A stretch of 64,000 nucleotides of DNA, taken from assembly GCF_041821025.1 (NCBI RefSeq), contig NZ_JBGUAY010000008.1, positions 62,001-126,000 on the forward strand, read 5' to 3'. Of the stretch, positions 43,829-49,568 are shown piece by piece. The position numbers were made by a program, and so were the translations under genes. Origin of the DNA: Egicoccus sp. AB-alg6-2. Its GTDB lineage: Bacteria; Actinomycetota; Nitriliruptoria; Nitriliruptorales; Nitriliruptoraceae. The notes beneath the pieces are model-generated. The model searched no databases and was not told where the DNA came from. It saw only the letters and a list, made by a program, of their open reading frames with translations. Each line of letters opens with the position of its first letter. Position 1 is the stretch's first letter.

Positions 43829-43909
43829 CCATGTCGCGCACGCGCCTCCCTGTCGCGCCCAACCCGCAGCAGTGCGGGATCGGCGCGACATGGGTGAGCA
43901 GCCGCGACA
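43829..43909. promoter_or_regulatory. TGTCGCG inverted-repeat cluster before the agmatinase gene
   Basis: TGTCGCG occurs at 43832-43838 and 43851-43857, and its reverse complement CGCGACA at 43884-43890 and 43903-43909. TGTCGCGCC (43851-43859) and GGCGCGACA (43882-43890) enclose a second perfect stem CCCGCA/TGCGGG (43863-43868/43873-43878) with loop GCAG. The whole region sits between the coiled-coil stop (43816) and the agmatinase start (43960). It could be an operator cluster, a terminator-like hairpin for the upstream gene, or a dispersed intergenic repeat. Confidence 0.75.
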
Positions 43910-43959
43910 TCGTCGGCTGCTTGACTCGTGGCCCGTACCGACGTCGAGGAACGCCGTCC

Positions 43960-45045
43960 ATGTCCGCCGCCGAACCACCGGTCGCCCCCGCCTCGTCGAC
44001 CGGCGCCGCCTCGCCGGCCGGCGCCGCCTCGCCGGCCGGCGCCGCCTCGCCGGCCGGCCGCGCCGACTCCGCAGGCCCCGTCGGGTCGGCCGGTCCCGTC
44101 GGCCCGGTCGACGCGACCGTGGTGCCGCGGTTCGCCGGCCCGGCAACGTTCTCCCGTCTGCCGCGGCGCGACGAGGTGACCCGGATGGACGTCGCCGTGG
44201 TCGGCGTCCCCTTCGACTCCGGGGTGAGCTATCGGCCCGGCGCCCGCTTCGGCCCCGCGCACGTCCGCGAGTCCTCGCGACTGCTGCGGCCGTTCAACCC
44301 GGCCCTCGGGGTGTCGCCCTTCGCCGCGCAGCAGGTCGTCGACGCCGGCGACATCGCCTGCAACCCCTTCGACATCCCGGAAGCGATCGCGGCGGTCGAA
44401 CGCGGGGCCCGGGAGCTGGTGGCCGCCGGCGCGAAGCTGCTGACGATCGGTGGCGACCACACCATCGCCCTGCCGTTGTTGCGGGTCATGGCGGCCGAGC
44501 ACGGACCCATCTCGGTGGTGCACTTCGACGCCCACCTCGACACCTGGGACACCTATTTCGGCGCGCCGACGACGCACGGCACCCCGTTCCGCCGCGCGTC
44601 CGAGGAGGGGCTGATCGATCCGGAGGGCTCGATCCACGTCGGCATCAGGGGTCCGCTCTACGCGCCGCAGGACCTGGTCGACGACGCTGCGCTCGGCTTC
44701 ACCGCGATCACCTGCCCCGACCTCGAGGTGGACGGCATCGCGGTGGCGATCGAGCGGATCCGAGCGCGCGTGCAAGACCGGCCCGTGTACGTGTCGCTCG
44801 ACATCGACGTCCTCGATCCCGCGCACGCCCCGGGTACGGGCACCCCCGAGGCGGGCGGCATGACCAGCCGTGAGCTGCTGCACGTCCTGCGCAGCTTCGC
44901 CGACCTGCACCTGGTCTCCGCCGACGTCGTCGAGGTGTCGCCCGCCTACGACCACGCCCAGCTGACCGGCATCGCCGCCGCGCACGTCGGCTACGAGCTG
45001 ATCAGTGCCATGGCGCCGACGGTGGCGGGTGCGGACGATGTCTGA
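43960..45045 (+). CDS. speB: Agmatinase-type ureohydrolase with repetitive N-terminal extension
   Basis: 361 residues from ATG 43960, with GAGGAA upstream. The N-terminus is low-complexity and carries the 18-bp repeat at 44002-44055. The ureohydrolase core has the binuclear manganese sites [24 protein letters not shown] and [22 protein letters not shown]. This is close to SpeB-like agmatinases, but guanidinobutyrase or arginase-like use cannot be excluded. It would hydrolyse agmatine to putrescine and urea. It overlaps by eight bases the FAD oxidoreductase gene, which suggests a polyamine or guanidino compound pathway. Confidence 0.88.
44002..44055 (+). repeat. Three exact 18-bp tandem repeats in the agmatinase N-terminal region
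   Basis: GGCGCCGCCTCGCCGGCC occurs three times in direct succession (44002-44019, 44020-44037, 44038-44055), encoding GAASPA three times. The copies keep the reading frame. This is not a CRISPR array, since there are no spacers. Confidence 0.92.
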
Positions 45046-46180
45046 CCAGGCGGCGCACGACCCGGGCCCGCCGCCGGCCTGGGGCACGGTGGGAGCGGCC
45101 GCCCGGGAGCTCCCACCGGTCGCGCCCGTCGTCGAGCCCCTCGGCGCGGACGTGTGCGTGATCGGGCTGGGCGCCTCCGGTCTTACCGCGGCGTTGCACC
45201 TCGCCGACCGCGGCGCCGACGTGGTGGCCGTCGACGCCCACGGCATCGCCGCCGCCGCGGCCGGGCGCAACGGCGGCTTCCTGCTGGCTGGGCTCGCGCA
45301 CTTCCATCACGACGCCGTGGCGGCGTACGGCCGCGACCGTGCCGTCGCGCTCTACCGCTGGACCCTCGACGAGCTCGAGCGGACGCTCGAATGGTTGCCC
45401 GAGCCCGTCGCCCGACGGGTCGGAAGCCTGCGCATCGCCGCGGACGCCGAGGAGCGCCGGGACTGTCGCCGGATGTTGGCGCAGCTGCAGGCCGACGGTC
45501 TTCCGGCGGAGGACTACGACGGTCCCGAGGGCGTCGGCGTCCTCCTCCCGACGGACGCGGCCATGGATCCGAGGGCCCGCTGCGCCGTGTTGGCCGAACG
45601 TGCGGTGGCTGCCGGCGTCAGGCTCCATGCCCCCTTCCGCGTGGCCGAACTCCGGCCCGGGACGGTGCACGGTGTCGAAGGCGAGGTCCGGGCCGACCGC
45701 GTGATCGTCGCCGTCGACGGTGGGCTCGACCGCGTGGTTCCGGAACTGGCGGGGCGGGTGGACAGCGTGCGGCTGCAGATGCTCGCGACCGCTCCGGATC
45801 ACGGTGTGGACCTGCCACGCCCGGTCTATCGGCGGTGGGGTTACGACTACGTCCAGCAACTGCCCACCGGTGAGGTGCTGCTCGGCGGCTTCCGGGACCG
45901 CGGTGTCGACGAGGTGGGCGCACCACCGCTCCCGAGCGCGGTCGTGCAGGACCACCTCGACACCGAACTGCGCCGGCTGGGCGTCACGGCACCCGTGACG
46001 CACCGCTGGGCGGCTCGGGCCGGCTTCACCGCGGACAAGCTGCCGATCTGCGCAGAGCTGCGTCCGGGCGTGTTCGTGATCGGCGGCTACAGCGGTCACG
46101 GCAACGTCATCGGGACGGCGTGTGGGCGGTTGGCGGCGGACGCCGCCCTGGACGGGACACCGCTGCGACTGCCGGCCTGA
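45038..46180 (+). CDS. FAD-dependent amine/amino-acid oxidoreductase (DAO family)
   Basis: 380 residues from ATG 45038, eight bases inside the agmatinase gene. The FAD dinucleotide-binding motif is [27 protein letters not shown] near the N-terminus, and [11 protein letters not shown] is typical of the D-amino-acid oxidase-like group (e.g. gamma-glutamylputrescine oxidase, sarcosine oxidase). The C-terminus shows [20 protein letters not shown]. With the agmatinase upstream the likely substrate is a polyamine such as putrescine or a derivative. The exact substrate is not shown by the sequence. Confidence 0.85.
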
Positions 46181-47960: not shown

Positions 47961-47994
47961 CCTGGTTCCTCCACGTCGATTGCTGACGAGCAGG

Positions 47995-48025
47995 ACCGTA
48001 AGACCTCGACCTAACTTGAGGTCAA
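47995..48025 (-). promoter_or_regulatory. MerR-family-type promoter (19-bp spacer with inverted repeat)
   Basis: Read on the minus strand, TTGACC (-35, 48020-48025) is separated by exactly 19 bp from TACGGT (-10, 47995-48000). The spacer carries ACCTCAAG and, inverted, GTCGAGGT (two mismatches). Overlong 19-bp spacing with a dyad in the spacer is the hallmark of promoters controlled by MerR-type activators such as SoxR. The ATG of the SDR gene is about 28 bases after the expected start of transcription. The cognate regulator gene is not in the window. Confidence 0.75.
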
Positions 48026-48076: not shown

Positions 48077-48105
48077 GACGGGCGGCCCACGAAGGGCCGC
48101 CCGTC
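48077..48105 (-). terminator. Strong terminator hairpin for the 48121-48450 gene
   Basis: On the minus strand GACGGGCGGCCC (48094-48105) pairs perfectly with GGGCCGCCCGTC (48077-48088) around a five-base loop. It starts 15 bases after the stop codon of the membrane-protein gene at 48121. It is followed by TGTCTTGCG, which is only weakly T-rich. It also insulates the SDR/QueA promoter at 47995 from the upstream gene. Confidence 0.85.
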
Positions 48106-48120: not shown

Positions 48121-48450
48121 TCAGGCGGCGCGGACGCCGGCCGAGGTGCCGACCGGGGCGGTGACGTCACCGTTGCGGCTGGCGATGGCCCCGACGAAGG
48201 TGCGCACGAACTCGCCGGTCGCGATCAGCACGACGCCGGTCATCAGCGGGTGGAGCCAGTCGACGCGCAGGTCCTGGCCAAAGGCGGCGAACACCGAGTA
48301 GTCCAGGCCCCACGCCAGACCAGCGGCCAGCAGGACGGCCACCGTGCGGGTGAGGGCAGTCGGGATGCGGACGGGGACGAGCTCGTCGATGGTGGCGACG
48401 ACCACGGCGAGACCGAGTGCGAGGGCAACGAGGATGACGAACGGGTACAT
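48121..48450 (-). CDS. Small membrane protein of unknown function
   Basis: 109 residues from ATG 48450, with CAAGGAGCG upstream. Three hydrophobic segments are evident: YPFVILVALALGLAVVVATI near the N-terminus, one at about 33-52 and one at about 68-86 (PLMTGVVLIATGEFVRTFVGAI). No family is recognised. The leader contains two small perfect hairpins (48486-48505 and 48464-48480). It is monocistronic and ends in a strong terminator. Confidence 0.78.
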   Translation of the reverse strand: MYPFVILVALALGLAVVVATIDELVPVRIPTALTRTVAVLLAAGLAWGLDYSVFAAFGQDLRVDWLHPLMTGVVLIATGEFVRTFVGAIASRNGDVTAPVGTSAGVRAA

Positions 48451-48598: not shown

Positions 48599-49162
48599 GT
48601 GGACGTCGACCCGGAACTGGTACGAGCGGTGCAGCGCGGCGACGCGGGCGCCATGGATGACCTCGTGCGCGCGTCCTACACCGACGTCTACCGCCTGTGC
48701 CACCGACTGCTCGGCGATCCGGCGGACGCCGCGGACGCGACGCAGGAGGTCTTCGTGCGGGTGATGCGTTCGGTGGTCGGATTCCGCGCCGACTCGGCCT
48801 TCGGGACCTGGCTGCACCGGGTCACCCTCAACGTCTGTGCGACGGCGCTGCGACGCCGCGGCGACGCACGCGCACGCGGCCAGGCCGCCGGTTCGGTTCC
48901 GTTCGAGCCAGACGAACAGGTCGTGGACGGTGCCGACACGGCGGGCGAGGTCGCTGCACGCGACCAGGCCGGCCGCGTCGCCGCCGCCATCGCCCGCCTC
49001 CCGCCGGTCGCGCGCGATGTCGTCGTGCTCCGTCACGTCCGGGGACTGTCGACCAAGGAGGCCGCGCGGATGCTCGACATCAGCGAGACTGCGTGCAAGG
49101 TCCGACTGCACCGGGCGCACGCCCGGCTGCGCGATCTCCTCGACGAGGGCGACGTTGACTGA
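48599..49162 (+). CDS. ECF RNA polymerase sigma factor
   Basis: 187 residues from GTG 48599 (VDVDPELVRAVQRGDAGAMDDL), with GAGGAT upstream; the frame is open to 48344 but that part overlaps the gene on the other strand. Region 2: DLVRASYTDVYRLCHRLLGDPADAADATQEVFVRVMRSVVGFRADSAFGTWLHRVTLN. Region 4: ARLPPVARDVVVLRHVRGLSTKEAARMLDISETACKVRLHRAHARL. It is the SigE/RpoE-like type with typical spacing. It overlaps the anti-sigma gene by eight bases, which fixes the pair as a unit. Confidence 0.94.
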   Translation: MDVDPELVRAVQRGDAGAMDDLVRASYTDVYRLCHRLLGDPADAADATQEVFVRVMRSVVGFRADSAFGTWLHRVTLNVCATALRRRGDARARGQAAGSVPFEPDEQVVDGADTAGEVAARDQAGRVAAAIARLPPVARDVVVLRHVRGLSTKEAARMLDISETACKVRLHRAHARLRDLLDEGDVD

Positions 49163-49568
49163 CGCGACCAACCGCATCTGCCGCGAGGTCCGGGTCCACC
49201 TGCCGCCGTACGTGGACGGCTCGGCGCCGGCGTGGCGTCGCCGACTGCTCGGCTGGCATCTCGCGCGGTGCAACGCCTGCCGAGTCGAACTGGAGCGGCA
49301 GCAGCAGGTCGCGGCGGGGCTCGAGGCACTCGGTGAGCTCCGCCAGGAGACCGCACCGCCGCCGGATCTGTTGGACACCCTGCTGGAGCGCGCCGGCCAG
49401 CCCGACCTTCGCAGCCGTGCCGCCGCCCCGGCACGCGGGGCGGTCAGTGGAGCGCGACCCGGTCTGTCCGTCGCATTGCTCGTCGCCGGCGCTCTCGCGG
49501 GCACGGCGGTCGGGTTCGCGGGCTGGCGTGGGGCACGAGCCGTGGACCGGCGGGTGCGACGCCGCTGA
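49155..49568 (+). CDS. Zinc-finger anti-sigma factor
   Basis: 137 residues from TTG 49155, overlapping the sigma factor gene. GAGGG lies about six bases upstream. The N-terminal ZAS motif is ICREVRVHLPPYVDGSAPAWRRRLLGWHLARCNACRVELE, with His-x3-Cys-x2-Cys. A membrane-spanning helix, LSVALLVAGALAGTAVGFAGW, lies near residue 105, then a basic tail. This is a membrane-bound anti-sigma factor that binds and inactivates the preceding ECF sigma factor, probably releasing it on an envelope or redox signal. Confidence 0.92.
   Translation: MTDATNRICREVRVHLPPYVDGSAPAWRRRLLGWHLARCNACRVELERQQQVAAGLEALGELRQETAPPPDLLDTLLERAGQPDLRSRAAAPARGAVSGARPGLSVALLVAGALAGTAVGFAGWRGARAVDRRVRRR

Follow-up and report, generated by a model that had tools for sequence, protein, structure and literature searches.

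The locus examined here raises two questions: which regulator acts on an oxidoreductase gene and a QueA-like gene that lie together behind a promoter with an over-long spacer, and whether the product of the QueA-like gene has any part in queuosine synthesis. The first-pass annotation of the window (the whole 64-kb stretch of DNA that was analysed) had proposed a MerR-type promoter, TTGACC-19-TACGGT, with a near-palindrome in its spacer. MerR promoters have spacers of 19-20 bp and are activated by untwisting, and their operators share a layout, according to the passages drawn on here (PMC5045206). We confirmed the promoter on the minus strand, which reads TTGACC-TCAAGTTAGGTCGAGGTCT-TACGGT from 48025 to 47995, with 65 nt from the start of TTGACC to the ATG of the short-chain dehydrogenase/reductase (SDR) gene. 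As in SoxR promoters, where a dyad lies between -35 and -10 elements set 19-20 bp apart, these two elements enclose a dyad. The near-palindrome therefore stood, with symmetry at 7 of 10 half-site positions, but the form first given for it, ACCTCAAG-N-GTCGAGGT, was slightly off, as the dyad is 20 bp long and even-centred. Related dyads are found at orthologous promoters. The features of the locus are collected in Table 1.

Table 1. Features of the SDR/QueA-like locus, in window coordinates.
Feature	Position	Strand	Basis or remark
-35 element TTGACC	48020-48025	minus	Sequence; conserved in same-genus genome G003
-10 element TACGGT	47995-48000	minus	19 bp from -35; -10 and spacing identical in G003
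Putative SoxR-type operator ACCTCAAGTTAGGTCGAGGT	48003-48022	minus	20-bp dyad, enclosed by TTGACC-19-TACGGT
Likely ribosome-binding site GGAGG of the SDR gene	47968-47972	minus	Read from sequence
Classical SDR, 234 aa	47256-47960	minus	PF00106; N-S-Y-K present
QueA-like protein, 357 aa	46186-47259	minus	PF02547, 222 bits; separate clade from canonical QueA
Hairpin, 12-bp arms	48077-48105	minus	Between upstream 109-aa gene and promoter; read from sequence

The pattern TTGACN-19-TAnnnT occurs exactly once in the 64-kb window, and the same pair of elements was not found there at spacers of 16, 17, 18, 20 or 21 bp. In 200 random sequences matched in dinucleotide composition the expectation was 0.05 such promoters per 64 kb, and none of the 200 held one with a dyad symmetry of 7 or more. 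The operator by itself is not unusual in the window at a loose setting: with up to three mismatches it has eight matches against 4.47 expected, a number reached by 11 of 100 shuffles. The combined promoter-plus-operator pattern, again with up to three mismatches, has one match in the 3.74-Mb genome and none in the reversed orientation; that one match is present by construction, because the pattern was built from the 47995-48025 site and its counterpart in G003.

The operon behind the promoter is as the first-pass annotation had described it, an oxidoreductase gene followed by a QueA-like gene. The two overlap by ATGA and therefore very likely form one transcription and translation unit. The hairpin upstream of the promoter is a possible terminator of the 109-aa gene and would then set the operon apart as a unit of its own. 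The oxidoreductase shares TGxxxGxG, N-S-Y-K, NNA(G/S) and the PF00106 domain with classical SDRs of the ketoreductase/FabG type; it differs from the NCBIfam SDR families in its top score of 129.1 against a cut-off of 218 (among the best 25 of 211 matches) and from the classical family in a DISDR signature near the C-terminus, present in 12 of 15 aligned partners. None of its solved relatives, which include ketoreductases, FabG-type enzymes and others, points to a substrate. No PF02547 member other than the QueA-like gene was found in the source genome (G000).

Several neighbours of the operon can be described. The 109-aa protein (48121-48450, minus strand) looks membrane-like, has no Pfam or NCBIfam match and occupies the same place in G003 with 75% identity. 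Convergent with the QueA-like gene, at 43831-46180 on the plus strand, are genes for an arginase-family protein and an FAD-dependent oxidoreductase (DAO), the latter adjoining the pair in G003 as well (71% identity). An ECF sigma factor (Sigma70_r2/r4) is encoded at 48599-49568 on the plus strand, followed by an overlapping frame that by eye has the look of a zinc-finger-type anti-sigma factor (CxxC).

The source genome has eight MerR_1 matches, one of which, at locus L031 on contig G000:C2, qualifies as SoxR under the curated cut-off (TIGR01950, 211.9 bits against 116.9). The protein also carries the arrangement CxxCxCx5C (CIGCGCLSLETC), which we take to be the [2Fe-2S] cysteine motif of SoxR, and the regulator that the first-pass annotation had called MerR-type can be named SoxR. 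The soxR gene is divergent from the gene for a quinone oxidoreductase of the PIG3 family (310.5 bits, cut-off 296.8; the score is that of a shorter frame, and matches of a 517-aa frame to the antisense of soxR were disregarded). Further operator copies were searched for, and one of them, ACCTGAAGTAAGGTCGAGGT, lies in the intergenic region between these two genes. By eye this box lacks a good -35/-10 pair on both strands, and it may therefore be an operator for autorepression or autoregulation. Genome-wide, the nearly symmetric 20-bp operator pattern has 144 matches with at most one mismatch, 72 per strand, and its zero-mismatch matches include a third, at C6:224160. The recognition helix of SoxR reads STLHFYE in this genus (L059, L060), against SALRYYE or SALRFYE in many relatives, and the boxes of the genus read ACCT instead of ACTT, although not as a strict rule. 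The idea that ACCT or ACTT tracks the His or Arg of the helix was dropped, as L086 has Arg with ACCT.

We compared the locus across 61 genomes of the class. The QueA-like gene is carried by 26 of these, and the SDR gene adjoins it in all 26, including three (G006, G031 and G057) in which the contig ends inside the SDR gene and which were left out of the operator comparison. SoxR scoring above 150 bits was found in 21 of the 26 carriers and in 3 of the 35 non-carriers (Fisher 1.4e-8, a test that ignores shared ancestry and incomplete genomes; weak matches in G045, G058 and a second one in G038, all below 80 bits, are not in the count). The soxR gene is divergent from and adjacent to the pair in 15 class genomes (16 loci, one genome contributing two), and a promoter with a 19-bp spacer is present in all 15 soxR/pair intergenic regions. 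Dyads like ACTTGAAGTTAACTTCAAGT are frequent in these 15, with symmetry at 5 to 9 of 10 positions (14 scored; L016 read from its sequence). A strict promoter pattern missed L016 and the class loci with a -10 of GACGAT, and gave one match each at spacers of 18 and 20. Where SoxR is encoded elsewhere in the genome, the box is present at the pair promoter in G000 and G003 and weakly symmetric, 3 of 10, in G010. No box was found in any of the five class carriers that lack SoxR (G037, G040, G046, G049 and G056). The operator is thus conserved at all 15 soxR-linked orthologous promoters and absent from the five without SoxR. One of these five, G040, holds at L025 a QueA-like gene with two in-frame TGA codons and an SDR match in two pieces, a locus that is either decaying or misassembled.

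The same correspondence is seen within the genus. With up to three mismatches the promoter-plus-operator pattern has one match in G000, six in G003 and none in G001 or G002, and the reversed pattern has none in all four genomes; neither SoxR nor the QueA-like gene was found in G001 (77% complete) or G002. In a sample of 198 genomes of the phylum, searched with a profile built from the class QueA-like sequences, 44 genomes reached at least 247 bits, and the other matched genomes reached at most 191.3 bits. SoxR above the cut-off is encoded by 25 of the 44 carriers against 20 of the 154 others (Fisher 1.2e-8, with the same disregard of ancestry and incompleteness). Six of the 44 also belong to the class set, and two sub-cut-off matches were left out: G103 has a truncated soxR-like frame next to the pair (101.3 bits), and G115 has a TGT fragment (24.4 bits).

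In general, SoxR carries a [2Fe-2S] cluster whose oxidation by redox-cycling compounds switches its target promoters on. In the mechanism that we infer, which extends to the inducers, the substrate and the reaction, SoxR encoded on contig C2 would bind the dyad at 48003-48022, and the oxidised protein would distort the over-long spacer and allow RNA polymerase to use the -35 and -10 elements, so that the SDR and QueA-like genes are transcribed. The SDR, with its full N-S-Y-K set, is probably NADPH-dependent and most likely reduces a carbonyl or quinone-type group. The QueA-like enzyme would probably bind SAM as QueA does and use it as ribosyl donor in a step of detoxification or tailoring, the acceptor being not preQ1-tRNA but most likely a small molecule. 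Comparison across genomes establishes, at the level of sequence, the promoter architecture, the presence and linkage of SoxR, the pairing with the SDR and the independence of TGT described below, and control of the pair by SoxR appears well supported comparatively. We consider it probable that the site is a SoxR operator in a 19-bp-spacer promoter and that the SDR and QueA-like genes form one unit outside queuosine synthesis, with SAM-ribosyl and NADPH chemistry.

What such a unit would act on is suggested by G003, in which the promoter sites precede the SDR/QueA-like pair, two ABC ATPases (of which one has a C-terminal domain of the DrrA1-3 type), an NADPH-dependent FMN reductase, an FAD/BBE oxidase and a DUF6506 protein. 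These co-regulated genes favour the processing of redox-active or toxic small molecules. The main rival to that reading is that the pair instead makes a protective or signalling metabolite, and so serves biosynthesis and not the detoxification of an incoming compound. We regard this as somewhat unlikely, although it has points in its favour. Enzymes that resemble those of antibiotic tailoring also belong to SoxR regulons, in the portion of PMC4146615 used here, and the regulators near the pair vary by lineage (SoxR, SufR-like proteins, GAF kinases with response regulators), as would be expected of a generally useful product. Against it stand the ABC ATPases and flavin enzymes of G003, and the widest neighbour clusters among 54 SDR-linked loci do not include a biosynthetic partner: apart from the pair and from frames that, by their position, run antisense to known genes, these are response regulators, present at 25 of the 54 loci, and ABC ATPases, present at 17, most clusters being unannotated.

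The 54 loci come from a scan of named genomes that returned at least 80 loci. Among the matches listed, 54 of 80 have an SDR upstream on the same strand, in some cases 0.5-1.3 kb away from the QueA-like gene and not in contact with it (L111, L119, L123); the other 26 comprise 24 of canonical QueA type and two at a contig edge (L114, L142). A SoxR-type promoter precedes the SDR in 22 of the 54 listed SDR-linked loci and was not seen in the remaining 32 or in any of the 26 others. All 10 listed loci with an adjacent soxR have it, and so do 12 without one (Nocardia, Amycolatopsis, Kribbella and others). The rule for this wider promoter was set after the class-locus sequences had been inspected; shuffled sets gave a mean of 0.01 per set, and control spacers gave none at 16, 17, 18, 20 and 21 bp and four at 22 bp. 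A search of plasmids returned a single record, labelled 11.85 Mb and thus in effect a chromosome.

Carriers without SoxR (5 of 26 in the class, 19 of 44 in the phylum) imply that the function of the pair is not tied to SoxR alone, and in part of the loci that lack soxR other regulators do lie near it. SufR-like proteins of the Fe-S type occur in a Chloroflexota record (L131), two Thermoplasmata MAGs (L136 and L138) and a Fibrobacteres MAG (L140), scoring 96.5-125.4 bits, below the SufR cut-off of 178.8. LuxR-type response regulators lie near the pair in L115, L124 and L129 and were also scanned in L108; GAF/HisKA_3 sensor kinases stand beside it in L108, L117 and L129 (two Streptomyces and another actinobacterium). 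The SufR-like and kinase associations are ones of neighbourhood, and MAG contigs may be misbinned. The OsdR/DosR box has the consensus AGGGCCGATCGGCCCT in the material taken from PMC5069765, and what is found in carriers without SoxR amounts to a resemblance to it.

A second alternative is that the QueA-like enzyme still acts on tRNA, placing a SAM-derived group on a different modified base, and that this is made stress-inducible through SoxR. The fold is consistent with such a role. The protein has the PF02547 domain, and its AlphaFold2 model (mean pLDDT 91.6) matches the two-domain structures of QueA, the tRNA preQ1(34) SAM ribosyltransferase-isomerase: 1wdi (Z 27.2, rmsd 9.0 A, 275 aligned), 1vky (Z 26.0, 9.1 A, 274 aligned) and 1yy3 (Z 25.0, 8.2 A, 288 aligned), with the next chain at Z 7.0. 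The large rmsd together with the high Z suggests that the two domains are arranged differently. Many residues are conserved in both clades, among them D59, N64, R149, Y186, H227 and E242, as well as GTT268-270, R273, E276, H313 and GD350-351.

The QueA-like protein differs from QueA in other respects. It does not reach any of the three NCBIfam cut-offs for QueA (147.1 against 324, 113.2 against 267.45 and 62.4 against 588). In a midpoint-rooted tree of 76 QueA-like and 25 canonical sequences, each group is monophyletic with respect to the other (support 0.979; L025-L029, which are split or have internal stops, and the broken or partial L135, L137 and L142 were kept outside the tree). The canonical motifs AAPTAGLHFT, NFHLP and YRFFSFGD are replaced by EMxSAGRPFT, GWHEP and YxWHEFGD; these clade-consistent differences count against action on tRNA, although another tRNA base would still be compatible with them. 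Gene content points the same way. The first-pass annotation had noted no other queuosine genes in the segment, and this extends genome-wide for the two pathway families searched, with no TGT and no QueC match in G000. None of the 26 class carriers has TGT, and QueC is convincing in one of the 61 class genomes (G055, 202.7 bits), other matches lying at about 19-25 bits. Within the phylum, TGT is present in 92 of 92 genomes that have canonical QueA only, and 32 of the 44 QueA-like carriers lack it; in each of the 12 carriers with TGT, an additional QueA of canonical type lies at most 600 bp away from it (by coordinates among the matches listed). In Neobacillus niacini (L134) the canonical and QueA-like forms lie within 11 kb of each other.

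We therefore think action on tRNA quite improbable. The QueA-like protein, by sequence, is predicted not to be QueA, and the pair to lie outside queuosine synthesis. The first-pass annotation had suggested an inducible stress or metabolite response in preference to tRNA housekeeping, and that interpretation gains support from an encoded SoxR, a second operator copy, the lack of TGT and QueC, and soxR genes beside the pair in relatives. Two side observations concern the queuosine families themselves. G055 has its full QueC in a genome without TGT, perhaps for 7-deazaguanine DNA modification or a natural product, and ten phylum genomes (for example G036, G068, G096 and G107) have TGT without a QueA-family match, perhaps reflecting queuine salvage or another use of TGT.

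The remaining alternatives concern the site. A MerR-family regulator other than SoxR could use the dyad at 48003-48022, given the other MerR_1 proteins in the genome and the similar layout of MerR operators (PMC5045206, as above), and L094 has a weak MerR-type match downstream. We judge this very unlikely, as the gene that recurs divergently beside the pair is soxR (15 class genomes and 10 of 80 scanned loci among the matches listed), the box was not found in the five class carriers without SoxR, and the promoter pattern is absent from the two sister genomes that lack SoxR. A chance resemblance to a MerR promoter has a negligible probability: a single site alone would be weak, and matches to the loose operator pattern show no enrichment in the window, but the simulated frequencies and the conservation at orthologous promoters contradict it.

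SoxR control of a non-queuosine pair is thus the reading that we carry forward. The QueA-like clade has an SDR partner in every uncut locus examined and often stands under a SoxR-type promoter, and its members come from records of Actinomycetota, Bacillota and Chloroflexota as well as from archaeal MAGs. A large non-queuosine sister clade within PF02547 implies that many such genes may be misnamed QueA, and its SDR partner and frequent SoxR promoter imply that a SAM-ribosyl reaction tied to redox stress may await discovery. It is tempting, though still tentative, to see here a second branch of the QueA superfamily, in which the ribosyl group of SAM would be transferred and rearranged onto a non-tRNA substrate together with a dedicated NADPH-dependent SDR, under unrelated redox sensors (SoxR, SufR-like proteins and GAF kinases). 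If true, the response to redox-active compounds would involve a new SAM chemistry, and the SoxR promoters would provide a direct means to induce the reaction. To our knowledge, QueA is known for one reaction. It is also the only entry under SAM ribosyl transfer in a table consulted in PMC1282579. The literature search, from which subscription journals were largely absent, returned no SoxR-controlled QueA relative and no SDR/QueA-like pair.

The closest known counterpart, among the SoxR regulons that act directly in non-enteric bacteria, is that of Streptomyces coelicolor, which, in the portion of PMC4146615 used here, consists of an ABC transporter and redox enzymes that include a quinone oxidoreductase. 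The ABC ATPases, FMN reductase and FAD oxidase behind SoxR boxes in G003 resemble that regulon. The same portion of the account mentions neither a QueA relative nor an SDR/QueA pair; in the genomes studied here, by contrast, the pair recurs as a conserved partner, and a divergent soxR frequently lies next to it.
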